Shown here in pieces: positions 2,770-33,225 of a stretch of 33,548 bases of DNA. Position 1 is the stretch's first letter, and each line of letters starts with the position of its first letter. The DNA is from a virus. The position numbers and the translations under genes were made by a program. The stretch spans positions 1-33,548 of the IMG/VR virus record IMGVR_UViG_3300042908_001243; one strand, written 5' to 3'. The notes under the pieces are model-generated. The model did not search any database. It was not told where the DNA came from and saw nothing but the letters and a program-made list of their open reading frames with translations.

Positions 2770-3390
2770 TTACCAACTCGGATTACCGCCATTAACAGCC
2801 TCAATCATGTATTTACTTCTACGATGCCAACCATTAGCAAATACCTTCTGAGATGGGTTCCCAGTGTAAATTGAAGTATAATAATCATCCTGTTTCTGGA
2901 TGTAGTTTTTAGCTTGTTCTGATGGTGTTGAACCGGAAATATCCCACTTTTTGCCACTATTGACATACGAATTCATAATGGCTAGATTTAAAGGTTTTTG
3001 AGCTTTATCAGCACCGGAAGCTACCCAGTAATCAGTATGATAGATTTTGATAGCTTGCGGTAGGGTAATCTGTGTAACCTCTATCCCGTGCCTTTTTGCC
3101 ACAGCATTGGTAATACCGTATTTAGTTTTCCCACCGCCATCGGCAGGGTGATCCGACCAACCTCCTTCTACTTTTAGAATATGTGCGATCGCCCATGCAA
3201 AACCCTCGTCATTTATACCAGCTTGACTAACAGCTTTCTTGATGTCTTCAGGGGCTTGTGCTTTGGAAATATCACCGGAAACATTACCCGATGGATTAAC
3301 ACCCGTTACTGATTGAATGGCGGGAGATTGTAGTAAATTGAAACCCGCAAATCCGACTACTCCTATCATCATTAAGTTATTGAAAATCAT
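2770..3390 (-). CDS. Membrane-anchored GH108-type N-acetylmuramidase (phage-type lysozyme)
   Basis: 206 residues. Residues 1-20 are a hydrophobic anchor or signal (MIFNNLMMIGVVGFAGFNLL), then a Ser/Gly linker, then a catalytic domain with the glycoside hydrolase 108 signature EGGW-x8-GGGKTKYGIT. Glu75 is the expected catalytic acid. A peptidoglycan-binding-like C-terminal half follows (YHTDYWVASGADK, LAIMNSYVNSGKKW). The enzyme would cleave the glycan strands of murein. It overlaps the M23 peptidase gene by 14 bp, so the two wall-degrading enzymes are made together, one for glycan and one for peptide. The N-terminal anchor suits a muramidase held in a transfer apparatus, virion or inner membrane better than a free endolysin. 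Confidence 0.8.
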   Translation of the reverse strand: MIFNNLMMIGVVGFAGFNLLQSPAIQSVTGVNPSGNVSGDISKAQAPEDIKKAVSQAGINDEGFAWAIAHILKVEGGWSDHPADGGGKTKYGITNAVAKRHGIEVTQITLPQAIKIYHTDYWVASGADKAQKPLNLAIMNSYVNSGKKWDISGSTPSEQAKNYIQKQDDYYTSIYTGNPSQKVFANGWHRRSKYMIEAVNGGNPSW

Positions 3391-3988
3391 TTTTCGGCTC
3401 CATTATTGGGATTACTTTTTTAGGGTCAATATATTTCCCGTTGAGTTTTATTCCTAAGTGTAGGTGATTTCCGGTTGATGTTCCCGTAGTACCAACCAAT
3501 GCAATAGGTGTACCGGCTTTGACTGATTGACCCTTTTGAGCTAAAACTTTCGAGGCGTGGCAGTATTTGGACAGGTAGCCACCGGAATGCTCAATCTCAA
3601 CTGCATTACCACATCCCCCCATGTCACCCGCAAAAGACACCTGACCATCGGCAACGGCTAAGATGTTTGCACCCCCTGGCGCTGCAAAATCAATCCCATT
3701 GTGTTGTTTCCAGTCCCTTGTTACGGGATGCTCGCGCATACCAAACCCAGAAGATATTGGGTATGGGGTTGAATGGGGATAGATAAACTTAGGGGGATCT
3801 TTACCTAACGTGACTGTTGAGGTTTGACTAAATTCTGTTGATTGGGGACTAGAAACTTGGGGAGAGGATTGGTTGAATTTAAGAATCCCAAAGCCCAACA
3901 ACAGACAAGTAATGAAAATCCAGAAAAAAGCATCATCCAACTGTTCCTCACAATCCCTTATCCTCTCCTCCAATTTCCGGTTCAACAT
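3377..3988 (-). CDS. Membrane-anchored M23 (LytM-type) zinc metallopeptidase
   Basis: 203 residues. A cytoplasmic charged N-terminus is followed by a membrane helix at about residues 20-37 (AFFWIFITCLLLGFGI), a Ser/Thr/Pro-rich linker to about 75, and an M23 domain to about 195. Zinc and catalytic residues are visible in HNGID (His96, Asp100), in the YCHAS segment (His144) and in NHLHLG (His175, His177). The GTPIALVGTTGTSTG block is typical of the family. It would cut peptide crosslinks in the wall. Its gene overlaps the GH108 muramidase gene and follows three small membrane-protein and ATPase genes, suggesting local opening of the wall by an envelope-spanning machine or by an entering virus. 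Confidence 0.85.
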   Translation of the reverse strand: MLNRKLEERIRDCEEQLDDAFFWIFITCLLLGFGILKFNQSSPQVSSPQSTEFSQTSTVTLGKDPPKFIYPHSTPYPISSGFGMREHPVTRDWKQHNGIDFAAPGGANILAVADGQVSFAGDMGGCGNAVEIEHSGGYLSKYCHASKVLAQKGQSVKAGTPIALVGTTGTSTGNHLHLGIKLNGKYIDPKKVIPIMEPKNDFQ

Positions 3989-4591: not shown

Positions 4592-6028
4592 CTATTTATT
4601 AATTAAGACTTTGGACTGAGAGGACTGAGATAATTGAGACTCCCATGCGGGTTTTAGGTAGTTAATGTAACGCTTGTTAGTAGAACGCGGCTCTATTCCT
4701 AACTCGCTACAAATTTGTTTTAGGGGTGATGGAATCAAACCGTGGGAATATTTAAAAGCCCGAAGTTCAAGGGAAGATTTAAACAGGGCAGTATTAACCT
4801 GCTCCCACCAATCACTATCAGGGTCGGTTGATTTGGCACTGGCAAAGGTAACGTTAAATCCTGATAGGTCAGGAATTGAAACTACTCTTGATTGCCCTTT
4901 GATTGTGCAGATAGCGGGTCTTTTCCCTTCCTTGAGCAACCTTTCAGCTATCTCTATTAACCCCGTTTTCTCCCCGGCTAAATACCGTAACTGCGATTCA
5001 GGGATTGATGGGTAGCAGATTATTAATTGAGCTAAATTTTCCAGTGTTGCCAAAGTAAAACCACCCTCACCGACGGACGCGGATTGACCCACGGGGATTA
5101 ACTTAATCTTGTAGCCTCTACCCTGCTTAATGATCTCAATTAGCTTATCGAGCCGGGAATTGGTTTTGTCTGACTTGTATCGTTCCACGATACTGTCAAA
5201 TTCTTCGCAGATTAGGCAAATCGGAGTCAGGTCAACTTGAATTTCTGATAACTTGGTAAAGCCGTTTCTGGCTCCGTCAACACAAGCCTTAATCCGTTTA
5301 TCTAATTGGGCGTGAACGTGATCAATTAGGCTATCAATCTCGTCATCGGGTTGCTTGATCCATTCGGTGTCCAACCCAAACCAATTATTAAGATAACCGT
5401 CATTATCGGGCTTTCCATAGTTCGGGTCAGCAATAAACAGTTGACCATCGGGGTTATTCTCAAGCCATTGACTGATTATCAATCCCAGGAGTTTAGATTT
5501 TCCCGACCCCGTGCCACCCGTTAGCCTTTGATGTGGCAACGATAGAAATTCAGATACCCAACCCGAATCATCTTTGATTGATTGAAACTTAGACTTGATT
5601 TCCGGTGGGATAGCTTTGATTAAGAGTTGTGAAGATTTGGCATAACCTTTTTCTCCAAAGTCCCCTAGACTATCCAAAGCCTGACCAACTCCCCAAACTG
5701 TCCAACTAACTGATTTAGCCAAGGTATCGGGGACGGTGCGGGGTAGATCCTCAAGTTTGACCATAGACTCATCCCCTAGTATCAACCCCGCTAAAGCACC
5801 AAGGCATCCCACGCCCGCTAAATATAGAAGGATTGAATTGTTAACCGGTTTACGCTCAATTACCAAAACGCTACCCCATTCTCCTTTCTGAGATTGGTGG
5901 GGTGAGATACCTTTTAAATCCTCAATCTGAACAGTCGCAGCGCTGAATAAACCAATGGCTGAAAATCCTAAACTTGCTGCAACGGCAACCCCCCAATTCT
6001 CCTTAGTGAAGTTATTTGGTTTTGGCAT
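4592..6028 (-). CDS. Membrane-anchored FtsK/HerA-superfamily DNA-translocating ATPase
   Basis: 478 residues from the ATG at 6028, chosen because GGAGG lies six bases ahead of it; an in-frame ATG at 6064 lacks such a site. Two membrane helices lie near residues 12-32 (WGVAVAASLGFSAIGLFSAA) and 65-85 (SILLYLAGVGCLGALAGLILG). The ATPase domain carries Walker A GGTGSGKSK at about 171-179 and a Walker B-like ICLICEEFDS, with a QGRGYKIKLIPVGQS block as in FtsK, HerA and coupling proteins. The C-terminal 60 residues look like a helix-turn-helix tail. It would pump DNA across a membrane or into a capsid. Possible roles are packaging motor of a membrane-containing virus, conjugation coupling protein, or partition pump; the sequence does not decide. 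Zot of filamentous phages has a different membrane-segment position. Confidence 0.75.
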   Translation of the reverse strand: MPKPNNFTKENWGVAVAASLGFSAIGLFSAATVQIEDLKGISPHQSQKGEWGSVLVIERKPVNNSILLYLAGVGCLGALAGLILGDESMVKLEDLPRTVPDTLAKSVSWTVWGVGQALDSLGDFGEKGYAKSSQLLIKAIPPEIKSKFQSIKDDSGWVSEFLSLPHQRLTGGTGSGKSKLLGLIISQWLENNPDGQLFIADPNYGKPDNDGYLNNWFGLDTEWIKQPDDEIDSLIDHVHAQLDKRIKACVDGARNGFTKLSEIQVDLTPICLICEEFDSIVERYKSDKTNSRLDKLIEIIKQGRGYKIKLIPVGQSASVGEGGFTLATLENLAQLIICYPSIPESQLRYLAGEKTGLIEIAERLLKEGKRPAICTIKGQSRVVSIPDLSGFNVTFASAKSTDPDSDWWEQVNTALFKSSLELRAFKYSHGLIPSPLKQICSELGIEPRSTNKRYINYLKPAWESQLSQSSQSKVLINK

Positions 6029-6818
6029 CTTTAGCCTCCTTTTCTGCCAATTGTTTAGCCTCAAGTTCTAATTGCTTTTGAAGGGCCTCAGTCCGCTTCT
6101 GCTGCTCGTAGGTTAAAGCTCTAAGTGTCATGGCAACCTCAGAGAACCGACGGACATCACTCGCCAAAACCGAGACATTAACAGAGGTAAACTTTAATTG
6201 AATTTGATCTGCCGATGTAGTTTCCCAATGGCGTTTTAGTGCCAAAAGATTTCCCCAAACCTCAAACAACAAATCAGCCGCTTGCTTCCGTTCTTTAGGT
6301 GAACCGTTAAATTCTCCCTCTAGCGTAGCTTTATCAAGTTTGTTAGCCAGAAAGTTGATTTTCTTAATCAGAAATAACTCAATAGAAATGGGTTTCTTTT
6401 CAATCTCAGAACGAGCTTGCAACAGGAATGTTTCTGCTACCGCTTCACTCAGATTGTTAACTTGAAAACCTACCTCGTTTAATGACTTATCTAATAGCTC
6501 ATTTCGTGCCATTTCTAAGTCAGGGGATGGTTGAAATTCTCCAGAATTATCATTAGCTTCGGTCGAGGTTTCCCCTGTTGGTTCTACCGTCATTTGCTGA
6601 ACTTCGGCAGTTTCAGCTACGGGAACGTTAGGAGCAAACTTCTTGATAATTCCTGATTTATTCCCGACTAAGGTAATAAAGCTACAAATTGCAATAACTG
6701 TTAGTAAAACCGCTACTCGTTTTCGTGTTTTATTAGGCTTTCTAGGTTCCCTCTGAGTGGCTTCTGAATCCCCACTAAAAGCTGGTAAGTCATCACTAGG
6801 CTGTAAACTGTCTAACAT
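6012..6818 (-). CDS. Single-pass membrane protein with helical periplasmic domain, 268 aa
   Basis: An acidic N-terminus is followed by the basic stretch EPRKPNKTRKR, a membrane helix at about residues 33-51 (VAVLLTVIAICSFITLVGNK), a linker, and a long mainly helical domain ending in a coiled coil (EQQKRTEALQKQLELEAKQLAEKEA). The last 17 bases overlap the start of the ATPase gene, so the two proteins are probably made as partners. No enzymatic motif is visible and the family is not recognised. The topology resembles scaffold proteins of secretion or mating channels. Confidence 0.65.
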   Translation of the reverse strand: MLDSLQPSDDLPAFSGDSEATQREPRKPNKTRKRVAVLLTVIAICSFITLVGNKSGIIKKFAPNVPVAETAEVQQMTVEPTGETSTEANDNSGEFQPSPDLEMARNELLDKSLNEVGFQVNNLSEAVAETFLLQARSEIEKKPISIELFLIKKINFLANKLDKATLEGEFNGSPKERKQAADLLFEVWGNLLALKRHWETTSADQIQLKFTSVNVSVLASDVRRFSEVAMTLRALTYEQQKRTEALQKQLELEAKQLAEKEAKDAKTK

Positions 6819-14158: not shown

Positions 14159-14434
14159 ATGATTGAGATACCTATTCAAATTGACGATATGCCCATATCC
14201 CCTGAAGCGTTTCGGGTATATGTTGCGATTGCTCGCAGTGTGGCTGAATATCAAGAATTTCCATCAATTGATCGCATTGCCGCCCGGTGTTTTAACAAAA
14301 AGTATGCAGCAGGAAAAACCCATGCAAGATTGGCTTTGCGAGAGCTTATTCGACTGGGATTAATTCAATCCGATGAAAGTGGAAGCTACAGAGTGTCACG
14401 CCCTGGTGAGTGGGAAATGGAAGGTGCCGCGTGA
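14159..14434 (+). CDS. Winged-helix replication-module protein, 91 aa
   Basis: The whole protein is one winged helix: SPEAFRVYVAIARSVAEYQEFPSIDRIAARC, AGKTHARLALRELIRLGLIQ, then the wing SGSYRVSRPGEW. It is paralogous to the N-terminal domain of the next protein (SSDAFRIYFHIVRRVGK, IKAIKAVKELITLNLIEV), so the pair looks like a tandem duplication. This fold is used by phage and plasmid initiators to bind iterons. AAGGAAAAG precedes the ATG. The next gene starts at a GTG overlapping this stop (GTGA at 14431), so the two are coupled. It may be an autoregulator or accessory origin-binding factor. Confidence 0.65.
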   Translation: MIEIPIQIDDMPISPEAFRVYVAIARSVAEYQEFPSIDRIAARCFNKKYAAGKTHARLALRELIRLGLIQSDESGSYRVSRPGEWEMEGAA

Positions 14435-15465
14435 CACAGATAAAAGACACTATTTCTGACAGAAGAAAATCCCCTGCTGTTTGGTTGTCGGTTGCTGTTG
14501 ATGATATCCGAATGTCATCCGATGCTTTTCGGATCTACTTCCACATCGTTCGGCGGGTTGGAAAAAATGAAAAAGCATGGCCGTCTTATCGTTCAATGGG
14601 GACTCACTGCTTCCCTGAATTAAAAGAAGATAGCGCACGGATAAAGGCAATTAAGGCGGTCAAAGAATTGATCACACTCAACTTAATCGAAGTCGAGAAA
14701 AACCAGACAGCGACGGGATTTCATTCCAATAATTACTACCTAACAGATGACTCGGAATGGAAGATACCTAGTAGCCCCACGCTACCACCTAGTAGCCCCA
14801 CGCTACCACCCCCTAGTAGCCCCACGCTACCACCTAGTAGCCCCACGCTACCTATAAGTGATCTTCAATATAAGGATTTCAAAGTTATTAAGGATTCTCA
14901 AGAAAAGATCCCCCCTACCCCCCAAGGGGAATCGGAGTGGGGGGGGATTCCAAACGAAACCGTTTTAGTTTCAAACGAAGACCACGGACAAGAGGGTACA
15001 GAGGACTTGACTCCTCACCAAAGCCCAGAACAAGACCCACCTGTTAAAAACCATCTTCCTACTCCTGAGATCAAACATCCCGCCGCCGTCGAGTTCGATT
15101 CTCGTTTTTTGCCAACGGACACAACCGCAGACAACATGAACACCTGGAACGCAATTATCAAAACCGGAGCCATGCGCGGCGAACGTTCCCCCGACCCTGA
15201 ATTTTTGGAATATTACCGGGTGCTGTTAAGCAAATGCACCCATTACAGAGGGAAGGATTGCAACTCTAACCACGCCAAATCTTCCCTAGCTCAGAAGTGG
15301 AAATCCGAACCGCTAAAAATTCTTGCCGATGCCGAAAGTTGGCTCAAAGCAAAAGCCAAGTTTAGCGGTGGCAAATCAACTCAGACCCGAAACATTGACG
15401 AGCTTTCTAAGGATGAACGCCTCGCCATCCTTAGAGCCAAACGCGAACAAAAATTAGGAGCTTAA
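14431..15465 (+). CDS. Lambda O-like replication initiator with iterons inside the gene
   Basis: 344 residues from the GTG at 14431, which overlaps the previous stop and follows GGAAGG. The N-terminal 100 residues are a winged helix (MSSDAFRIYFHIVRR to NLIEVEKNQTATGFHSNNYYLT). A linker with four copies of SSPTLPP follows; its DNA is a four-unit 21-bp tandem repeat (14767-14853). The C-terminal 130 residues (WNAIIKTGAMRGERSPDPEFLEYYRVLLSKC to RNIDELSKDERLAILRAKREQKLGA) are helical and basic and may bind the loader or helicase. The order initiator, loader, DnaB and the position of the repeats match lambdoid replication modules. Initiator function is inferred from fold and context. Confidence 0.7.
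   Translation: MTQIKDTISDRRKSPAVWLSVAVDDIRMSSDAFRIYFHIVRRVGKNEKAWPSYRSMGTHCFPELKEDSARIKAIKAVKELITLNLIEVEKNQTATGFHSNNYYLTDDSEWKIPSSPTLPPSSPTLPPPSSPTLPPSSPTLPISDLQYKDFKVIKDSQEKIPPTPQGESEWGGIPNETVLVSNEDHGQEGTEDLTPHQSPEQDPPVKNHLPTPEIKHPAAVEFDSRFLPTDTTADNMNTWNAIIKTGAMRGERSPDPEFLEYYRVLLSKCTHYRGKDCNSNHAKSSLAQKWKSEPLKILADAESWLKAKAKFSGGKSTQTRNIDELSKDERLAILRAKREQKLGA
14767..14853 (+). repeat. Four 21-bp iterons, candidate replication origin
   Basis: Units begin CCTAGTAGCCCCACGCTACC at 14767, 14788, 14812 and 14833. Units 2 and 3 are separated by three extra C residues, which keeps the reading frame; the last base of unit 4 differs. Each unit contains GTAGC-CCCAC-GCTAC, a small inverted repeat. AT-rich DNA follows at about 14854-14900. 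The 21-bp period is two helical turns. Confidence 0.65.
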
Positions 15466-15467
15466 CC

Positions 15468-16058
15468 ATGACCGAGCTTAACGATGAAATCTTTGATCAG
15501 GGAATTGAAAACCTGAAAGAAAACTTTCCCGACGCGATTTTTACACAACTCAAGTATGAGATTTGGTTTGACAAACTCAGTCAAGAGTTATCGGCAGAAG
15601 AATTTGAGATGGCAATTATGGAGGCGATTTTCAATCTTAGACAATGCCCCACGGGTAAAGAGCTTGTAAACCTCGTTAAAGAGTCCGACCGTGAATTGGT
15701 ATCTAATTGTTGGTCGAGATGCCTAGAATCGCTCGCTAACCGCCTCCCGTTAAATAATTTGGATGATGCTACCCAGTACGCAATTTTCAAACTCGGTGGG
15801 ATATCTCACCTCGGATCGATTGAAAGTACCCAACTGCAATACCTGAGCAACGATTTCAAGATCCACTGGCAAGCCTACCGAAAATCCCCGCGAGAATTTG
15901 AGCGCCCAGTGCAAATCATTCCCCCTGAGCAACGGGAATTCAAACCCGATGGAAAAAAACCGCAGCTTTCAGAGGAACAACGGGTAAAAAATCAGGAATT
16001 TCTAAATAACCTGATCGCCACAAAAATGAGTAAAAACTTAAACGGAGCGAAACAGTAA
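15468..16058 (+). CDS. Helicase-loader-like protein (phage P/G39P-like role), 196 aa
   Basis: It starts two bases after the initiator and ends two bases before dnaB. The N-terminal domain (AIFTQLKYEIWFDKLSQELSAEEFEMAIMEAIFNLRQCPTGKELVNLV) has the pattern of phage helicase-loader N-domains: a helix with W-x-x-x-L, then a helix pair and a P-T-x-x-E/D-L turn. The C-terminus is disordered and basic (PEQREFKPDGKKPQLSEEQRVKNQEFLNNL). It has no AAA+ motif, so it would load the ring mechanically rather than by ATP hydrolysis. Assignment rests on position and weak sequence pattern. Confidence 0.55.
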   Translation: MTELNDEIFDQGIENLKENFPDAIFTQLKYEIWFDKLSQELSAEEFEMAIMEAIFNLRQCPTGKELVNLVKESDRELVSNCWSRCLESLANRLPLNNLDDATQYAIFKLGGISHLGSIESTQLQYLSNDFKIHWQAYRKSPREFERPVQIIPPEQREFKPDGKKPQLSEEQRVKNQEFLNNLIATKMSKNLNGAKQ

Positions 16059-16060
16059 TC

Positions 16061-17359
16061 ATGAAAAATGTCGAGGCAGAACAAGCCGTTTTAGGGGGGA
16101 TTCTATTAGACCCAGAAGCCATTGGTCGAGTTGCAGAAATGTTGCAACCTGAATCATTCTCCCTGCGATCGCATCAAACGATTTACAAAGCAGTATTAAC
16201 CCTGCATTCCCAAGGAAAACCCACGGATTTGATGACCGTTACATTTTGGTTGGCAGATCAGAAATTACTCGAACAAGTGGGAGGACAATTAGGATTAACT
16301 CAACTCGTAGATCGGACGGTTTCAGCAGTCAACATTGATCAATATGCCAAACTAATTCTTGACAAAAAAACCCGTCGCGATCTAGTATCTTCCGCTTATA
16401 AGATTATTGAGTTAGCAGAAGATACCAGTCAAGAATTAGAAACTGTAATTCAAAAATCAGAAGAACAAATTGCCAATATTTCCCAGGGCAAATCCTCAGA
16501 GGATTTAGTTTCAATTGGTGAAACCCTGATTGATACCTTTCAGGAAATTGAAGATCGGAGTGAAAGCAAAATTCCCCCCGGTGTTCCCTGCGGTTTCTAT
16601 GATTTAGATGCAATGACAGGAGGTTTTCAACGTTCAGATTTAATTATTGTGGCTGGTAGGCCGTCAATGGGAAAAACAGCCTTAGCAGTCCAGTTTGGTT
16701 TTAAGATTGCTAAAAAAGGATTACCCGTTGCGGTGTTCAGTTTAGAAATGTCCAAAGGTCAGTTAGTCCAACGACTTTTAGCAGGGGAAGCAAAAATCGA
16801 AAGCACGCGGCTGCGGTCGGGAAATATTCAGCAAGATGAGTGGGAGCCGTTAACAGAGGCGATTAGTAAGTTAGCAGAATTGCCGATTTTTATTGACGAT
16901 ACCTCGAACCCTACTGTCAATGAAATTAAGAAAAAAGCTCAAAAACTGCAAGCCGAAAACGATGGAAAATTGGGCTTAATCCTAATAGATTATCTGCAAT
17001 TAATGGATGGTGGTAGCGAGAATCGGGTGCAGGAATTGTCAAGAATTACACGGGGATTAAAGGGAATGGCAAAGGACTTAAACGTCCCTGTTATTGTCTT
17101 ATCTCAGTTAAATCGAAGTGTTGAGCAACGCACTAATAAACGCCCAATGATGTCCGACTTGAGAGAATCGGGATCAACGGAACAGGACGCGGATTTAATA
17201 ATGATGATTTACCGAGATGATTACTACAATCCCAACAGTTCAGAAGCCGGGGTAGCTGAAATCATTTTAACCAAACATCGCAACGGCCCCACCGGAACGG
17301 TTAAGTTATTATTTGATTCCCAGTTTACTCAGTTTAAAAATATGGCGAGGTCAAGATAG
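16061..17359 (+). CDS. dnaB: Replicative DNA helicase DnaB
   Basis: 432 residues, normal length, no intein. The N-terminal domain (EAEQAVLGGILLDPEAIGRVAEML, residues 5-28) is followed by the linker and the RecA-like domain. Walker A is AGRPSMGKTAL at 198-208, Walker B is LGLILIDYLQLM, and QLNRSVEQR and SDLRESGSTEQDADLIMMIYR are the usual DnaB motifs. It unwinds the element's replication fork 5' to 3' as a hexamer. It is the third gene of the initiator-loader-helicase series with two-base gaps, so it is probably recruited specifically to the iteron origin in the initiator gene. Carrying a full DnaB suggests replication independent of the host helicase. Confidence 0.95.
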   Translation: MKNVEAEQAVLGGILLDPEAIGRVAEMLQPESFSLRSHQTIYKAVLTLHSQGKPTDLMTVTFWLADQKLLEQVGGQLGLTQLVDRTVSAVNIDQYAKLILDKKTRRDLVSSAYKIIELAEDTSQELETVIQKSEEQIANISQGKSSEDLVSIGETLIDTFQEIEDRSESKIPPGVPCGFYDLDAMTGGFQRSDLIIVAGRPSMGKTALAVQFGFKIAKKGLPVAVFSLEMSKGQLVQRLLAGEAKIESTRLRSGNIQQDEWEPLTEAISKLAELPIFIDDTSNPTVNEIKKKAQKLQAENDGKLGLILIDYLQLMDGGSENRVQELSRITRGLKGMAKDLNVPVIVLSQLNRSVEQRTNKRPMMSDLRESGSTEQDADLIMMIYRDDYYNPNSSEAGVAEIILTKHRNGPTGTVKLLFDSQFTQFKNMARSR

Positions 17360-18064: not shown

Positions 18065-18637
18065 ATGACCGTAACAACCAAGATATTTGAAAGAGTTTTA
18101 AAAGTTGGTGAGTGGGTAGAGATTGACCCACATAAACACCGCCCATCTTATCTAATAAGAGGTACAGCATGGCGAGTTGAAAGTTTCAATGTATTAAAAC
18201 AAACCTGTCAAGTAACTAACTGTAAAGAGGGAAGTTGGCACAGATCAGAAACCCTAGACTTTGAGGAGATTTCCGACTCATCCCCATTCAAAAAAACTGA
18301 TATTGTGCAATTAAAAAAGGATAGCCGTTACATCGGACGGGTGATTATGTGCCGGGGGAATAAAATCAAAATTCAGTGGGCGAAAGGATTGGCAGAATCC
18401 TTAGACTCGGACAAGATAAAACTATTTATTCAGATGGTCAAAGGGGAACAAATCCCCCTCGGAAATTACGCTTTCCAGAAAGGCGATCATGTCAAAACTA
18501 CAGACAAGAATTTTGGCAATGTAATCCTCACTGTAAAAGAATGCTTACCCTCTGGAATGGTGATGTTGAGTTCATCAAACGATCCTAATTTACTACTCCC
18601 CGGGTGTGGCTTAACAGTTGTTGAGGAGGGTTTCTAA
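18065..18637 (+). CDS. Hypothetical beta-rich protein, 190 aa
   Basis: Not recognised. It is strongly beta-structured, with two barrel-like modules: FKKTDIVQLKKDSRYIGRVIMCRGNKIKIQWAKGL and FQKGDHVKTTDKNFGNVILTVKECLPSGMVML. Both resemble KOW/SH3-type folds that bind nucleic acid or protein. It ends on the ATG of the methyltransferase gene (TAATG at 18637), so they are coupled. It may be a partner or DNA-targeting subunit of the methyltransferase. GGAG lies six bases before the ATG. Confidence 0.55.
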   Translation: MTVTTKIFERVLKVGEWVEIDPHKHRPSYLIRGTAWRVESFNVLKQTCQVTNCKEGSWHRSETLDFEEISDSSPFKKTDIVQLKKDSRYIGRVIMCRGNKIKIQWAKGLAESLDSDKIKLFIQMVKGEQIPLGNYAFQKGDHVKTTDKNFGNVILTVKECLPSGMVMLSSSNDPNLLLPGCGLTVVEEGF

Positions 18638-19671
18638 TGCCAACATTCGCAACATTATTCATGGGCGGAGGCGGTGCAGATTTGGGGTTAGAAGCCGCGG
18701 GTTTTGAGTCCATTTGGGGGATCGAACGAGATCCTAAAATTGCAGAAGTAGCACGATTAAATTTCCCCAATACCAAAGTATTCAACTCTTGTGTTGGTGA
18801 AATTCGCACTCATCTCATGGAGCGGGTTGATCTACTTTGGATGAGTCCCCCCTGCCAACAATACAGCAATGCACGGCGGGGTGATATTCCTGACCATAAA
18901 GATAAAGATGCGGGGCTTTATTGCTGTGATTATATTGCCATATTATCCCCTCGATGGGTGGTTCTCGAAAACGTCCCAGGATATGCAAAATCACCAACTT
19001 TTGAGGCGATATTGCGATCGCTAATTGATTGTGGATATCGCTATCATTGGTTAATTTTAGACGCGGCGGATCACGGGGTTCCGCAAAACCGGAAACGGTT
19101 GATTATGTGGGCAGTTAAAAATTCAGAACCCCTCCCTTATTTTCCTGAATCAAAACCTAAAAAGGGATGGTATCAAGCCATTAGTGATTTAATCCCAGAA
19201 ATGCAGGATTGTGAGCTTGCGGACTGGCAGATTAAGCGATTGAATGAATTGGGATATTTGCCAGAAAAAGCCTTGATTGATATTGGTAAACAACTCATTA
19301 GACAGGCTACAGTTCGGGAGTCAAACGATCCAAGTTTTACTATCGTAGGGGGTCACTGTAATTCCCATTCTCCCATCCTATTAATCCCCCGTGCGGGAGC
19401 CTGTATTAAGAACATTTTACCGACTCCACAAAACAAGCCTTGTCCAACAATTCGAGCTATGGCGGGTGTTTCGACCCATTGGGCGGACATCGTACAGGGA
19501 AGTCAAATCAAACGGATTAGTCAAAAAGCGACGGCACGGCTGCAAACTTTTCCCGATGATTACAAATTCCCAGAATCCAAATCTTTAGCCCAACAAATCA
19601 TCGGGAATGCCGTCCCCCCGTTGTTGGCCAAAGAGCTAGGTCTGGCAATCTTAAAATCAATTAACTATTAA
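18637..19671 (+). CDS. DNA (cytosine-5) methyltransferase
   Basis: 344 residues, a compact C5 methyltransferase. Motif I is FMGGGGADLGLEAAGF (residues 8-23), motif II has WGIERDPK, motif IV is MSPPCQQYS with the catalytic Cys73, motif VI is VVLENVPG, motif VIII is QNRKRL, motif IX RESNDPSFTIVGG and motif X QQIIGNAVPP. The target-recognition region between VIII and IX is short, so the recognition site is probably simple. No cognate endonuclease lies nearby, so it is likely a solitary modification enzyme that protects the element from host restriction or sets gene expression. Recognition sequence unknown. Confidence 0.92.
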   Translation: MPTFATLFMGGGGADLGLEAAGFESIWGIERDPKIAEVARLNFPNTKVFNSCVGEIRTHLMERVDLLWMSPPCQQYSNARRGDIPDHKDKDAGLYCCDYIAILSPRWVVLENVPGYAKSPTFEAILRSLIDCGYRYHWLILDAADHGVPQNRKRLIMWAVKNSEPLPYFPESKPKKGWYQAISDLIPEMQDCELADWQIKRLNELGYLPEKALIDIGKQLIRQATVRESNDPSFTIVGGHCNSHSPILLIPRAGACIKNILPTPQNKPCPTIRAMAGVSTHWADIVQGSQIKRISQKATARLQTFPDDYKFPESKSLAQQIIGNAVPPLLAKELGLAILKSINY

Positions 19672-20399: not shown

Positions 20400-22073
20400 A
20401 TGTCTAATTTTAGCGAAAATGTGCGAACAAAGGAGTTTAAACTCATTCTATCTTCAGAACAAGAGCGAACCCTAGAAGATTGGATGCTAGTTTGTAAGTG
20501 GGTTTGGAATCGCTCATTAGGACTGATAGAGGAATTTAACGAGTGGAACCCTTACGATAAACTGTCAAAGTCTAACGTCCCTGCAACTCCCTTGCAACGA
20601 TACGACCGCAAGCTCAAGCAATGGGTACGAATTGAGATCCCAGATTGGAAGATGGGGATTGAGCGAGTCGAGAAGAAAAGGGGGTTAATCCATCCTGTCG
20701 CCATTGATGAAAATAGTCCTATTATTGACTCACTGGATTCTAAAAAGTCGGTACTATACGGGTTTCTAAAGGTATTTGGACATCAGCACCACAAGGATCG
20801 GATTGTGACTTATTTAGTTAGAGGTGAGGAGCGAAAAGTTAATTTCACCGATTGCCCGGCAAAATTTATTCAAGGTGTAGCGCATGAACTATCAAAGGCT
20901 TGGGAGGGATTTTTAGCGGGTCGCCACAGTCGTCCACGTTTCAAAACAGCTAAAGATAAGGTAATGACTTTAATCCATTACAACGCTAAGGATCTAGGCG
21001 TTAAGGACAGTAAGATCAATATTCCAAAATTGGGTTATATCGAGGTAATTGGATTTGATAAACGGTGGTATGGTTGCGATTTTAACCCGATGAAAATTTG
21101 CAAAAAAGCGTCGGGGTGGTATATACAATTAACTGCGTCCGTCCCTGTCAAACAAGCCAAGAAGACAGGGTTATGTTGTGGAATTGACCCCGGACATCAG
21201 TTTGTTATGGCATTGGATAATGGTCATACTATTGAGGCTGCACAACCTTTAAAGCGATCGCTAAAACGTCTAAGGAAAATGCAGCAACAATTATCTCGCA
21301 AGTATCGAATGAACGAGGGGAAAACTAAGAATTGGGAGAAACTCAATAATAAAATTGCTAAACTTCATGAGAAAATCGCCCGTCACCGCCGATCATTCAA
21401 TCACTGGCATTCTACCAATTTAATCAATTGGTTTGACGTGATTTTTGTTGAGGATTACAAACCCGCCAACGTCTACCGAAAAGCTAAAGCCAAGGCAAAA
21501 TTAGACACAGAAGGAAATCCAGTGGTTGCCGAAAATGGTACAGTTATCTACGATAAAAATAGTCAAAAACGCAAACGAGGAAGTAACAGAACAGGGAGTG
21601 ATGTAGCTATTGGTCAAGCTATTGATTTATTAGAAACCAAAGCAAAGGAACACGGAAAATTAGTGATTCGGGTTGATAATTGGGGAACTACTTTATGTTG
21701 TGCGAAGTGTGGACATCAAGAGAAGAAAAAGCTATCTCAACGCACTCACAAATGCTCTAATTGTGGTTATACCGTTGCTCGTGATGTCAACTCAGGACAG
21801 AACATTAAGTTAAAAGGTTTAGCTCAAATGGCAATCAATCAAGGTGTGGAATTGTCCGATAATTTCTGGTATAAATTCCTGATTAATAAAAATTCGGCAA
21901 CCCCTAGCTGTTCTAAAAAGGCAACCAAGAAAAAAACCAAAAAGTCAGACACCATAACGATTCCAGATGATTTGTTTAAAAACGGGGTTCACGATTTTTT
22001 AGTTGCCGAAACCGCCAAAACTCATGCTATAATAAATCGAATGAGCTTAGGTGATTTCGATAGAAACGCCTGA
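20400..22073 (+). CDS. Compact TnpB-like Cas12 (type V-U-like) CRISPR effector
   Basis: 557 residues. The N-terminus (EFKLILSSEQERTLEDWMLVCKWVWNRSLGL, residues 12-42) is the TnpB/Cas12 wedge start. RuvC-I is CGIDPGHQFVMALDNG with Asp263, RuvC-II is VIFVEDYKPANV with Glu351, RuvC-III is RDVNSGQNI with Asp462, and a zinc ribbon has Cys434, Cys437, Cys452 and Cys455. The triad is complete, so it should cut DNA, unlike Cas12k. Two parts are unusual: a Lys-rich insert at 358-396 and a Lys-rich tail of about 90 residues after RuvC-III. It lies 19 bp before a same-strand CRISPR array with no adaptation genes. It is larger than IS605 TnpB (about 400 aa), and no transposon ends or TnpA are present, so a CRISPR effector is preferred over a transposon nuclease. 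Subtype not assigned. Confidence 0.85.
   Translation: MSNFSENVRTKEFKLILSSEQERTLEDWMLVCKWVWNRSLGLIEEFNEWNPYDKLSKSNVPATPLQRYDRKLKQWVRIEIPDWKMGIERVEKKRGLIHPVAIDENSPIIDSLDSKKSVLYGFLKVFGHQHHKDRIVTYLVRGEERKVNFTDCPAKFIQGVAHELSKAWEGFLAGRHSRPRFKTAKDKVMTLIHYNAKDLGVKDSKINIPKLGYIEVIGFDKRWYGCDFNPMKICKKASGWYIQLTASVPVKQAKKTGLCCGIDPGHQFVMALDNGHTIEAAQPLKRSLKRLRKMQQQLSRKYRMNEGKTKNWEKLNNKIAKLHEKIARHRRSFNHWHSTNLINWFDVIFVEDYKPANVYRKAKAKAKLDTEGNPVVAENGTVIYDKNSQKRKRGSNRTGSDVAIGQAIDLLETKAKEHGKLVIRVDNWGTTLCCAKCGHQEKKKLSQRTHKCSNCGYTVARDVNSGQNIKLKGLAQMAINQGVELSDNFWYKFLINKNSATPSCSKKATKKKTKKSDTITIPDDLFKNGVHDFLVAETAKTHAIINRMSLGDFDRNA
22025..22033 (+). promoter_or_regulatory. Extended -10 promoter for the CRISPR array inside the effector's 3' end
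   Basis: TGCTATAAT is an extended -10 element; TTGCCG about 19 bp upstream is a weak -35. The start would fall near 22040, about 55 bp before repeat 1, so the array can be transcribed apart from the effector. Confidence 0.55.
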
Positions 22074-22092: not shown

Positions 22093-22650
22093 CTCGCAAT
22101 AGACGATTGCCTATTTTATGGATTGAAACTTGGACTAGCTCTAATAGGATTGGGAATATTTACAGTCTCGCAATAGACGATTGCCTATTTTATGGATTGA
22201 AACGCAGAAAATATGGCATTGTTTCAGGACATCTCTGACCTCGCAATAGACGATTGCCTATTTTATGGATTGAAACATGCTTGATTCTCAGGTTGATTGT
22301 GAATCTATGGACACCCGCAATAGACGATTGCCTATTTTATGGATTGAAACTCAAGTCAGGGTTAACTATTCCTGAGAATAGACAAAATTGGATCCCGCAA
22401 TAGACGATTGCCTATTTTATGGATTGAAACGATTTTGATGCTAATTACCATTCCGACTTAGCAAAACCCGCAATAGACGATTGCCTATTTTATGGATTGA
22501 AACGGAAGAAATTTAATTGCTTATCCCCCCGCGCCTCTAACCCGCAATAGACGATTGCCTATTTTATGGATTGAAACACCATTGATTTAAGTCCTTTAAC
22601 TAGGGTTAGGAGACCCGCAATAGACGATTGCCTATTTTATGGATTGAAAT
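22093..22650 (+). CRISPR. CRISPR array, eight 37-nt repeats, seven spacers
   Basis: Repeats start at 22093, 22167, 22240, 22314, 22394, 22467, 22541 and 22614. The unit begins CYCGCAATAGACGATTGC and ends ATGGATTGAAAC, with GCAAT-AGACG-ATTGC as an internal 5-bp hairpin. Spacers are 37, 36, 37, 43, 36, 37 and 36 nt. The last repeat ends in AAAT instead of AAAC, which marks the trailer end, so the leader is on the effector side. The first three repeats have T at position 2 and the last five have C. No cas1 or cas2 is in the window; adaptation must come from elsewhere. I saw no spacer matching the window. Confidence 0.97.
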
Positions 22651-22708
22651 AACGATTGCATTGTTTCTTGACTAATTTGATACTAGCTGACTATATTATA
22701 ATTTGATC

Positions 22709-27710: not shown

Positions 27711-29675
27711 ATGTCATTAAATAACAAACGCATTCCATTGGCCGTCCGAGTCCGTAACGCTTCTACTCTACAAGAGGCAATGTTTGAGGAAGGCGTTGAT
27801 CTAGTCGCGGGTCAACTAGAAATCATCTTCAATACCAACACCCGCGAATTAACGTGGGAAGAAATCGAATACATACAATCACTATTTACTGTTGCTAATA
27901 AAGAGTGGAACAGTATTAATTTCGACACAAAAAGTTTTGAACAATTGATTGAGGGTAAGTCACGCGGTGCGCGGTATCTTGCTTATCAGGTGGTAGAAGC
28001 CGAAAAACAAGATAAGCAATTTGACATGACCCAAGCCCGAAAAGATTGGGCTGCAACAAAGGAGTTGCGCTATTGGGCGAAGTCCCATACTGAAGACTTG
28101 ACGCTATGTGGTTTGGGATATGAAAAATACCTGACTGAAGACGGTATTTGGAAACCTGTAAGCCGATTATATGATCGTTGGAACAACTATAACGAGAAAA
28201 ACGCCGAAAAGCGATTCAGTGTAGATACCGGAATGCTGCTAAGTCTGGGTATTCGGTACGCATGGCAAGCCGAACGATTCCTGAACCTCTATAAAGAAGT
28301 GATGAACGCCAAGCGGTCATGGCGTAGCTGCTATCAAGTCAACCAAGAAAAAGTTCTACAAATTGCCACAACGCCAAACTACAACCGACTGCCATTGTGG
28401 GTCAAAAAGGCAATGGTTAACGCTGATGCTTTTGAGGTTCATTCCGACCGGATCGGGAATATCTGGCGGCTTCGTGACTGTGCCCGTGCCTGGAAATGGT
28501 GTGGCAATCTTCCCAAGGGGATTGCCGAACGGGTTGGACGGATGCCAGTTAAAAGCCGTTTCTTGGCTAAATTGGCATGGGATGAAATCGTGGGGGATGA
28601 CCGCGCAGGTTGGTCATTTTTTCACGGCCATGAGTGGCAACATTGGAATCGTCAGAATTTGACAAGTGAGTTTTGGTTGAAATTCCGCGAGTTTGAACAG
28701 ATGAACTTCGGTCAATTATTGCCCTACATTATGGGTGATGAAAACGGAGAATGGAGTCGGAGTGGGTATTCCCGCAAGTATTATTACATCAAAAAGCATT
28801 ACCGGACTCTATTGGAAGTTGCCCTAAATCTTCCCCATGAGTCACTTCCCTGGACTAAATTAAATCTGTCTAAAAACTCAGATCAATTATTACTGGGCTT
28901 AGTTGATTTCCTTTCTCCTCAGAAAGCCTGTGAACACCTGTTTGGTACAACAGGAAAAGCGACGGTCAAAGCATTTCAAAATAGCTCACCCACACCCCGT
29001 AAATGGGCGATGGTGCTGGTTAATGGCAACGCCGACCTGTTGCAAAAATACCTGAATCTTCAGGAAGATTTAGTTATCGGGTTTCAGGAGGATGCAATCC
29101 CCTTCTTGAAATCGCTATCTTCTGAAGTGGCATTACGGATGCTACAAACCACGACTTTTAAAGTCCGTGGTGAAGTAAATAACGTTGATTCCAATTTAGT
29201 CCGTGATGCGGGCTATCTTTGGAAACAGCTTAATGAAGACGGAACAGGCGCACCGGAATTGGGACGGGTGCGGTGTTGGTTGACTGTTCACGAAACACTA
29301 GCTAAAGAATATGTCCGCCGTCAACCGGACTATGAGTTAAAAGTTAACCCCGATTTTAAACGGGTTCAAGGACTCTGTGCTGTTGATGGTAGTTGGGAAC
29401 TGGAAATCCCAACCTGTAACGCTCAATTAAAACTATGGGGTGAGCAACTATCCCACTGTGTCGGTGGCTATGGTCAAGCGGTCAATAGCGGTCGTTCCAT
29501 TATTCTTGCTGTTCGGGAGCAAGGGCGAGTGACACACACAGTCGAGATGATTCCGTCTAACGGTTCTTACAAATGCCAGCAGTTCTACGGATATCGGAAT
29601 AACTCCGCGCCCGATAGTCTAATTGATTCGGTTATTGGGGCTTTAAATCAAGCCAATTTAGCTAATCCATTTTAA
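27711..29675 (+). CDS. PcfJ-like protein, 654 aa
   Basis: The longest gene in the window. The C-terminal part (CNAQLKLWGEQLSHCVGGYGQAVNSGRSIILAVREQGRVTHTVEMIP then CQQFYGYRNNSAPD) has the PcfJ signature L-x-HCVGGY and an N-terminal helical body full of Trp. PcfJ-like proteins were named from conjugative plasmids and are common in phages and mobile elements; their activity is unknown, although a conserved His-Cys suggests an enzyme or binding pocket. Family call is confident for the C-terminus, function is not. It has its own promoter, with the palindromic repeat upstream, and is followed by two hairpins. Confidence 0.75.
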   Translation: MSLNNKRIPLAVRVRNASTLQEAMFEEGVDLVAGQLEIIFNTNTRELTWEEIEYIQSLFTVANKEWNSINFDTKSFEQLIEGKSRGARYLAYQVVEAEKQDKQFDMTQARKDWAATKELRYWAKSHTEDLTLCGLGYEKYLTEDGIWKPVSRLYDRWNNYNEKNAEKRFSVDTGMLLSLGIRYAWQAERFLNLYKEVMNAKRSWRSCYQVNQEKVLQIATTPNYNRLPLWVKKAMVNADAFEVHSDRIGNIWRLRDCARAWKWCGNLPKGIAERVGRMPVKSRFLAKLAWDEIVGDDRAGWSFFHGHEWQHWNRQNLTSEFWLKFREFEQMNFGQLLPYIMGDENGEWSRSGYSRKYYYIKKHYRTLLEVALNLPHESLPWTKLNLSKNSDQLLLGLVDFLSPQKACEHLFGTTGKATVKAFQNSSPTPRKWAMVLVNGNADLLQKYLNLQEDLVIGFQEDAIPFLKSLSSEVALRMLQTTTFKVRGEVNNVDSNLVRDAGYLWKQLNEDGTGAPELGRVRCWLTVHETLAKEYVRRQPDYELKVNPDFKRVQGLCAVDGSWELEIPTCNAQLKLWGEQLSHCVGGYGQAVNSGRSIILAVREQGRVTHTVEMIPSNGSYKCQQFYGYRNNSAPDSLIDSVIGALNQANLANPF

Positions 29676-31738: not shown

Positions 31739-32428
31739 TTATCTGATAATCGTTAACGTCGTAGTCTCTGGCAACTTCACCCACGGATAAACGATCCGCC
31801 AAACATCGTGACTATAAATATTTTTCGTCATGTACCGGGCGTCGGGAACTTGTTTAATCTCTATCCCCATCTTAATACTCATCGCTTTGAGAGGTCGCCA
31901 ACTGAAGTTAGACTCATGAACTTTATTGAACTTGGCAACCCTGATGATTGACGAATAATCAAAAAGTTCATCCAAAGCCTCGGACAGTTGATTGTTTTCT
32001 TCCTCAAGCAGTGCTTTCTCGGCCTCTAACTTTTCTACCTCTAACGCCAATCGTCCAGCCTCTAGCAAAGCCTGAGCATAGGTTTGTGGTAACGCAAGCG
32101 GGGTCTGAACGTGGTTATTCTTAGCAAGGGAGAAAGCCTCAACTAACCGTTCTTTGCAATCCAAAACCTGATCACTGTTTCGGGAAAACGTCATCAAAAG
32201 TGTTGCTTGTGCTTCATTCAAGAAACAGTAAGAGACTTCGTAAGCCCCACCCTGCGGGCGTCTCACCACGTCCGTTTTAAACGCGACTGGTGTTTTTCGT
32301 TCTAATCGGTCTAAATACTTTGTGATTGTTTGCAGTAAGTTCTTATGTTGAATCCCCAGTTCATCAGCAATCAATCGGGAATCGACAACTAAGGTGTCAT
32401 TCTGTGTGGTAATGTCAAGAATAGCCAT
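31739..32428 (-). CDS. Rha-family phage regulatory protein (antirepressor-like)
   Basis: 229 residues. The N-terminal half is a Rha domain: LVVDSRLIADELGIQHKNLLQTITKYLDRLE, VAFKTDVVRRPQGGAYEVSYCFLNEAQATLLMTFSRNSDQVLDCKERLVEAFS. The Q-G-G/C-x-x-L-x-x-x-Q/A-x-x-L-L-x pattern is diagnostic. A coiled coil follows (EAGRLALEVEKLEAEKALLEEENNQLSEAL) and the C-terminal domain (NFSWRPLKAMSIKMGIEIKQVPDARYMTKNIYSHDVW) is of the kind seen in phage antirepressors. It would act against a repressor, possibly the XRE protein at 13273. It has its own promoter at 32503-32532. Confidence 0.82.
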   Translation of the reverse strand: MAILDITTQNDTLVVDSRLIADELGIQHKNLLQTITKYLDRLERKTPVAFKTDVVRRPQGGAYEVSYCFLNEAQATLLMTFSRNSDQVLDCKERLVEAFSLAKNNHVQTPLALPQTYAQALLEAGRLALEVEKLEAEKALLEEENNQLSEALDELFDYSSIIRVAKFNKVHESNFSWRPLKAMSIKMGIEIKQVPDARYMTKNIYSHDVWRIVYPWVKLPETTTLTIIR

Positions 32429-32989: not shown

Positions 32990-33225
32990 CCCACCTCAAA
33001 AGTAACAACATTCCACTTCAATTCTACCTGTAATTCTACCTGTAATTTTACCTGTTCTGATATCCATTTGTCCATACATGAATTAATAAAAACAGGATAA
33101 TCATTACGAGATTGTAGCCATTGTTTAGGATACTTAACTTTCAATTCCTTAATCGTGAAAGTTTCCTCGGATACGGTAACTTCACGATCCAATGCAATCA
33201 GTTTAATTTTAGTTGAATTATTCAT
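32986..33225 (-). CDS. Hypothetical protein with LQVE repeats, 79 aa
   Basis: Not recognised. The C-terminal part contains three repeats of about LQVE (VKLQVELQVELKW) from a 12-bp tandem repeat at 33021-33056. The start (STKIKLIALDREVTVSEETFTIKELKVKYPKQWL) is a small alpha/beta fold. It is coupled to the downstream gene by an ATGA overlap. Confidence 0.5.
   Translation of the reverse strand: MNNSTKIKLIALDREVTVSEETFTIKELKVKYPKQWLQSRNDYPVFINSCMDKWISEQVKLQVELQVELKWNVVTFEVG

Follow-up and report, generated by a model that had tools for sequence, protein, structure and literature searches.

The window, the whole 33,548-nt stretch of IMG/VR virus record IMGVR_UViG_3300042908_001243 that we analysed, carries a replication module in which an array of iterons lies within the initiator gene itself. 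The features of the module are:

14159..14434 (+): stand-alone winged-helix gene, 91 aa, directly upstream of the initiator (Pfam HTH_36, E 6e-7)
14431..15465 (+): O/DnaD-like initiator of replication, 344 aa (E 2e-7 to PHROG 270, replication initiation protein)
14767..14852 (+): array of four identical CCTAGTAGCCCCACGCTACC iterons, spacing 21/24/21
14853..14909 (+): AT-rich stretch (72% AT over 14853-14912) containing short imperfect repeats, presumably the DNA unwinding element
14901..15465 (+): constant C-terminal half of the initiator, common to all relatives (78-96% protein identity)
14910..14929 (+): C-tract element CCCCCCTACCCCCCAAGGGG, within about 10 bp of which the DNA similarity of other module types begins
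15468..16058 (+): small protein, 196 aa, placed as a helicase loader by position
16061..17359 (+): DnaB-type replicative helicase (TIGR00665, E 1e-184, above cut-off)

The initiator ORF was listed with 351 codons from GTG 14410, but GTG 14431 is the likely start codon because of a GGAAGG sequence resembling a ribosome-binding site and because of comparison with relatives. An AlphaFold model of the full-length protein, in which the N-domain was the only usable part, places a winged helix at residues 30-110 (numbered on the listed ORF), for which the N-terminal winged helix of DnaD was the top fold match (Foldseek probability 1.00, E 0.012). Sequence searches of the PDB returned spurious matches only, the whole protein had no match in the phage collection, the N-domain alone had none in viral_contigs, and scans of genome_contigs gave none.

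The four iterons, identical over 20 nt, start at 14767, 14788, 14812 and 14833 (TRF score of the array 172). The repeat-chain score of the gene is 72, against a maximum of 32 in 60 dinucleotide shuffles and of 49 in 60 synonymous-codon shuffles. Each unit holds the dyad GTAGC-CCCAC-GCTAC (shuffle P = 0.01) and scores z = -5.4 as a DNA hairpin. The array occupies the linker between the N-terminal winged helix and the conserved C-terminal part, which starts at 14911, and directly 3' of it lies the AT maximum of the gene (50-mer, 14849-14898, 74% AT vs a gene mean of 52%); the AT-rich stretch itself contains two copies of a 14-16 bp unit. Comparison at the sequence level establishes this anatomy, and bears out the original prediction of four 21-bp-type repeats with an inverted repeat, followed by AT-rich DNA and lying between the DNA-binding and C-terminal domains. 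Cumulative GC skew, which had been proposed as a check, has its minimum near the array (16224, 1.4 kb away), though it is confounded by gene direction, which switches near 13.6 kb. An exact 19-nt search for the window's iteron in viral_contigs found no match, and an Rfam search found nothing.

The two genes after the initiator had been predicted to encode a loader-like protein and DnaB. Given its TIGR00665 match, identification of the second as DnaB can be taken as certain; for the first, which has a weak DUF6475 match and a PHROG of unknown function, the loader role is a guess from position.

Elsewhere in the window, GCGATCGC (HIP1) occurs 17 times vs 0.23 expected, an excess that points to a cyanobacterial host. 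A 557-aa TnpB/Cas12-like protein is encoded at 20400-22070 (+), with a type V C2c8 model as its best NCBIfam match (302 bits, below the cut-off of 350), and after it, at 22238-22669, come six CRISPR-like repeats (CCCGCAATAGACGATTGCCTATTTTATGGATTGAAAC), each about 37 nt long and at a spacing of 73-80; together these are possibly a virus-borne compact type V CRISPR system. Genes at 2770-3988 (-) and 4592-6064 (-), with matches to a glycosyl hydrolase 108 endolysin, an M23 peptidase and, weakly, a HerA/FtsK-like ATPase, are consistent with phage lysis and perhaps packaging functions. A C5 cytosine methyltransferase (18637-19671, +), a PcfJ-like protein (27711-29675, +), a phage Rha regulator (31739-32428, -) and three tandem copies of the 12-bp unit AATTCTACCTGT (33020-33055) are also present.

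Block exchange among relatives and conservation of iteron DNA

Relatives in IMG/VR keep the C-terminal half of the initiator at 78-96% identity, and their loader and DnaB DNA is 82-97% identical to that of the window. The N-terminal domains of their initiators are of four types without evident similarity to each other:

Type A: window (PHROG 270)
Type B: L005 and others (DnaD-like PHROG 6493)
Type C: L008, L014, L017, L042 (no family)
Type D: L013 (PHROG 4707)

The linker of each type carries its own repeat array. Because DNA similarity to the window begins only at 14903 (L005), 14901 (L008) or 14868 (L013), the alignments show that the N-domain and the iterons, together with at least most of the AT-rich stretch, have been exchanged as one block, as predicted for a self-contained module of initiator plus target. 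This parallels lambda, P22 and L, which have different iterons inside their initiator genes (PMC8022706). Origin conflict, which accompanies replication-module exchange in the case of ICP1 Odn and the PLE origins (PMC8263062), is by analogy a possible reason for module exchange in the window's relatives as well.

The iterons of the window are all in frame and so, taken alone, would also fit selection on the peptide they encode. Spacing is likewise in frame (21 and 24) in type B and in Deinococcus QL22. Nostoc plasmids whose N-domains are related have units 21/23/22/23/22 bp apart, and type C relatives 24/23/23; one DNA unit is thus read in two or three frames (IGNPNL, SGIPIY, SGESQF). Two successive units nevertheless add up to 45 bp both in the window and type B (21+24) and in Nostoc (22+23). 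The dyad arms vary by lineage but in most lineages are still self-complementary, many of them with a C- or G-rich centre; an automatic dyad test did not reach significance for one Nostoc unit or for types B and D. Since spacings of 22-24 bp break the frame, and since different N-domains carry different repeats, these data point to selection acting on the iteron DNA, as originally predicted, rather than on the peptide SSPTLPP. Had the flexible Pro/Ser linker been what was selected, with the repeats arising incidentally from recent in-frame duplication and replication starting elsewhere, one could understand why the units of the window are identical and in frame, as fresh duplications would be, and why Deinococcus QL22 encodes a similar STPTVLP linker; but the linker peptides of other relatives are unrelated (SQSLDLN, IGNPNL, GSAGGTP) while their DNA repeats break the frame, the repeat score exceeds every synonymous shuffle, and the AT maximum follows the array as in known origins. 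We regard selection on the linker as extremely improbable.

Stand-alone genes resembling initiator N-domains also lie upstream of the initiators of relatives (L005:4198-4563, L014:843-1211, L013:5013-5294, L017:4995-5273). Those of L013 and L017 belong to the HTH_36 family of the window's stand-alone gene, with a dN/dS of about 0.3 between the two. Some match the family of another relative's initiator N-domain: that of L014 is B-like (49% identical to the type B domain) and that of L005 D-like (36% identical to type D). Measurable pairs have a dN/dS of 0.2-0.3, indicating purifying selection, and therefore look like working genes and not mere remains; their products may serve as regulators or may target foreign iterons. 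In L042 a short scar at 1179-1237, similar to the beginning of a type D N-domain (MKRDRKEY...), sits between a B-like stand-alone gene and a type C initiator, a putative trace of successive module replacement.

The presence of such a gene just upstream, under purifying selection, and the occurrence of tandem dyads in operators too, would suit an array that serves as an operator for the initiator or for the stand-alone protein, with replication starting elsewhere. In all relatives, however, the array is mid-gene and not at a promoter, AT-rich DNA always follows it, it is exchanged along with the N-domain of the initiator itself rather than with the stand-alone gene, and the layout matches the lambda and P22 origins. 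We consider the operator reading highly improbable.

Likeness to known origins and a candidate mechanism

Known phages share this layout. In lambda (NC_001416, 38686-39585) four dyad iterons about 20-24 bp apart lie in the middle of gene O and are followed by AT-rich DNA, with the N-domain upstream of the array and the partner gene downstream, as in the window; lambda differs in recruiting the host DnaB through P, whereas the window has its own helicase, and in having, instead of a C-tract, an unrelated 12-nt inverted repeat after its AT-rich stretch. P22 (gene 18 - gene 12), HK97 (O - P) and phage L likewise carry iterons and AT-rich DNA inside the initiator gene. These phages further resemble the window in a C-tract variant directly after the AT-rich stretch and in their own DnaB-like helicase downstream, but differ in N-domain and iteron sequence, in having no gene between initiator and helicase, and in C-tracts with C5 runs, not the C6 of the window. 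SPP1 has the gene order 38-39-40 with oriL inside gene 38 (PMC6316719); its likeness to the window rests on gene layout, the loader of the window being putative, and unlike the window it has a second origin, oriR, elsewhere. The lambda-like layout with its own helicase noted in the original prediction is therefore present, but already known from P22 18-12, HK97 O-P and SPP1 38-39-40.

Plasmids offer a further comparison. HTH_36 initiators of Nostoc and Deinococcus plasmids (NZ_AP023443, NZ_CP091915, NZ_CP097156 and others) have N-domains 28-40% identical to that of the window and, like it, repeats within the gene followed by AT-rich DNA (with a 15-bp direct repeat in some); in several Nostoc plasmids DnaB is the next gene after the initiator. 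They differ from the window in an unrelated C-terminal half, in the frame-breaking iteron spacing of Nostoc, and in the C-tract, of which we saw none at the places examined; the C-tract is thus not needed by every member.

We conclude that the region is very probably the origin from which a cyanobacterial phage or phage-like element replicates, located inside its initiator gene. Tandem dyad iterons follow the DNA-binding domain and adjoin an AT-rich region, the initiator is O/DnaD-like, and the iterons change together with the N-domain, as in lambda-type intragenic iteron origins; the phage-encoded DnaB-type helicase downstream is a trait of SPP1-type modules. Comparison with relatives, lambda and P22 supports the original reading of iterons and AT-rich DNA in an O-like gene as an origin. 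An intragenic iteron origin is itself of a known kind, here in a cyanobacterial phage family. The record, a linear 33.5-kb contig, may be incomplete, so a further origin could lie beyond it.

We propose that the N-terminal winged helix binds the four dyad iterons in the linker DNA, and that the bound initiator would strain the DNA such that the AT-rich stretch at 14853-14909 melts, as in lambda (PMC3985674, PMC7466680). The C-terminal half, the small protein and the element's own DnaB would then assemble on the opened strand, the first two presumably placing DnaB by analogy with lambda and SPP1 (PMC6316719). In such a scheme the N-domain, iterons and AT-rich stretch would form a specificity block that is swapped against a constant half starting at about the C-tract.

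The C-tract element

The original prediction was right about iterons followed by AT-rich DNA, but missed an element 3' of the AT-rich stretch that is the most unusual feature of the region. Directly after that stretch, 14910-14929 matches the consensus C5-6 (T)TA C5-6 (T)AA(A) G4-8. The exact sequence CCCCCCTACCCCCCAAGGGG occurs in 108 IMG/VR stretches (viral_contigs), vs 1 for a composition-matched control; BLAST with the C6 form gave no match for either the motif or its control, probably owing to low-complexity filtering. Almost all copies lie within replication-initiator genes, after AT-rich repeats, with a few in ORFs that could not be assigned. Together with the window they form 69 protein clusters (50% identity), or 21 groups by any detectable similarity. 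Family scans of these ORFs gave DUF1376, HTH_36, Phage_rep_O, Lin1244 and DnaD_N, and their PHROG names are replication initiation protein or primosomal protein, O-like or DnaD-like. AT content is 0.69 in the last 20 nt upstream of the C-tract vs 0.43 gene-wide, and upstream repeat chains were found for 26 of 64 representatives, frame-breaking in 21, vs 1 of 239 downstream windows. DnaB-like genes are frequent downstream (about 22 of 60 scanned ORFs), and DnaC-like ones occur at times. We found no description of the C-tract or its variants in the open literature searched, which does not extend to most subscription journals or to the original report of the P22 sequence.

Translation of the C-tract yields TPLPPKG or PPTPQG, with 35, 21 and 1 representatives in the three frames when only unambiguous cases are counted, since choosing the longest ORF misassigns some GC-rich loci. 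Four copies were first assigned to phase 0, which retains one unambiguous representative; among those copies, a second long frame rivals the assigned one in L062 and L108, and the ORF of L141 is short. The two common peptides are Pro-rich with Gly at the end, and the P22 form differs from the exact motif at synonymous sites only, as would be expected if the element were kept as a Pro-rich hinge of initiators. The peptide differs by frame, however, and a search for TPLPPKG without C-rich codons (synonymous at six sites, Leu = YTA) gave no recognisable initiator: the matches, of which the ten longest were checked, were short ORFs, out of frame or of no initiator family, whereas matches with C-rich codons were mostly initiators. 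The use of several frames and the absence of codons lacking C-runs from recognisable initiators show conservation of the C-tract at the DNA level, and we judge a hinge peptide to be a very doubtful explanation.

The C-tract lies at the module boundary in the window's relatives and is common to otherwise unrelated phages, so that it might be a recombination linker at which initiator halves are swapped, and not part of the origin. Comparison of P22 with HK97 argues otherwise. In P22 gene 18 the variant CCCCCTTACCCCCTAAAGGGGG closes the annotated rep_origin, and HK97 O carries CCCCCTTACCCCCTAACGGGGG; the DNA most alike between the two initiator genes is the AT-rich stretch and C-tract (95% over 60 nt), whereas their iterons differ. 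The conserved block thus includes the AT-rich stretch, with divergence on both sides, and the boundary is not at the C-tract. The place directly after AT-rich repeats is, moreover, kept in many families, and the C-runs and G-run stay together in variants. We regard the linker explanation as unlikely. The P22 annotation suggests that its annotators counted the C-tract stretch as origin by likeness to lambda.

The G-run can pair with either C-run, but the hairpin energy is not above that of shuffles. Covariation between Y2 and R (Fisher P 2e-6, from clusters that are not fully independent) is only suggestive, and may alternatively reflect a change of loop length. We propose that the C-tract belongs to the origin at the DNA level and would border the melted region; our best guess at its role is helicase loading or strand structure, but because its predicted stability is no better than that of shuffles, a protein site is equally possible. 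On balance, we lean towards the view that DUF1376, HTH_36, Phage_rep_O and DnaD-like initiator genes of tailed phages have in common a third, constant origin element, the C-tract, after variable iterons and AT-rich stretch, which would function at the DNA level, perhaps as a structured site or one bound by protein where helicase or primosome is placed, and would be general enough for phage origins to be located directly from sequence.

We suggest that the near-invariance of this 20-bp element, which dozens of unrelated initiators carry at one and the same position and of which P22 and HK97 have variants, gives the locus its wider meaning. If the C-tract is part of the origin, it would provide a simple sequence signature for phage origins and reveal an unstudied step of phage replication that is testable in model phages. 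The cyanobacterial phage family, in turn, offers ready-made swap experiments in its natural exchange of N-domain and iterons.
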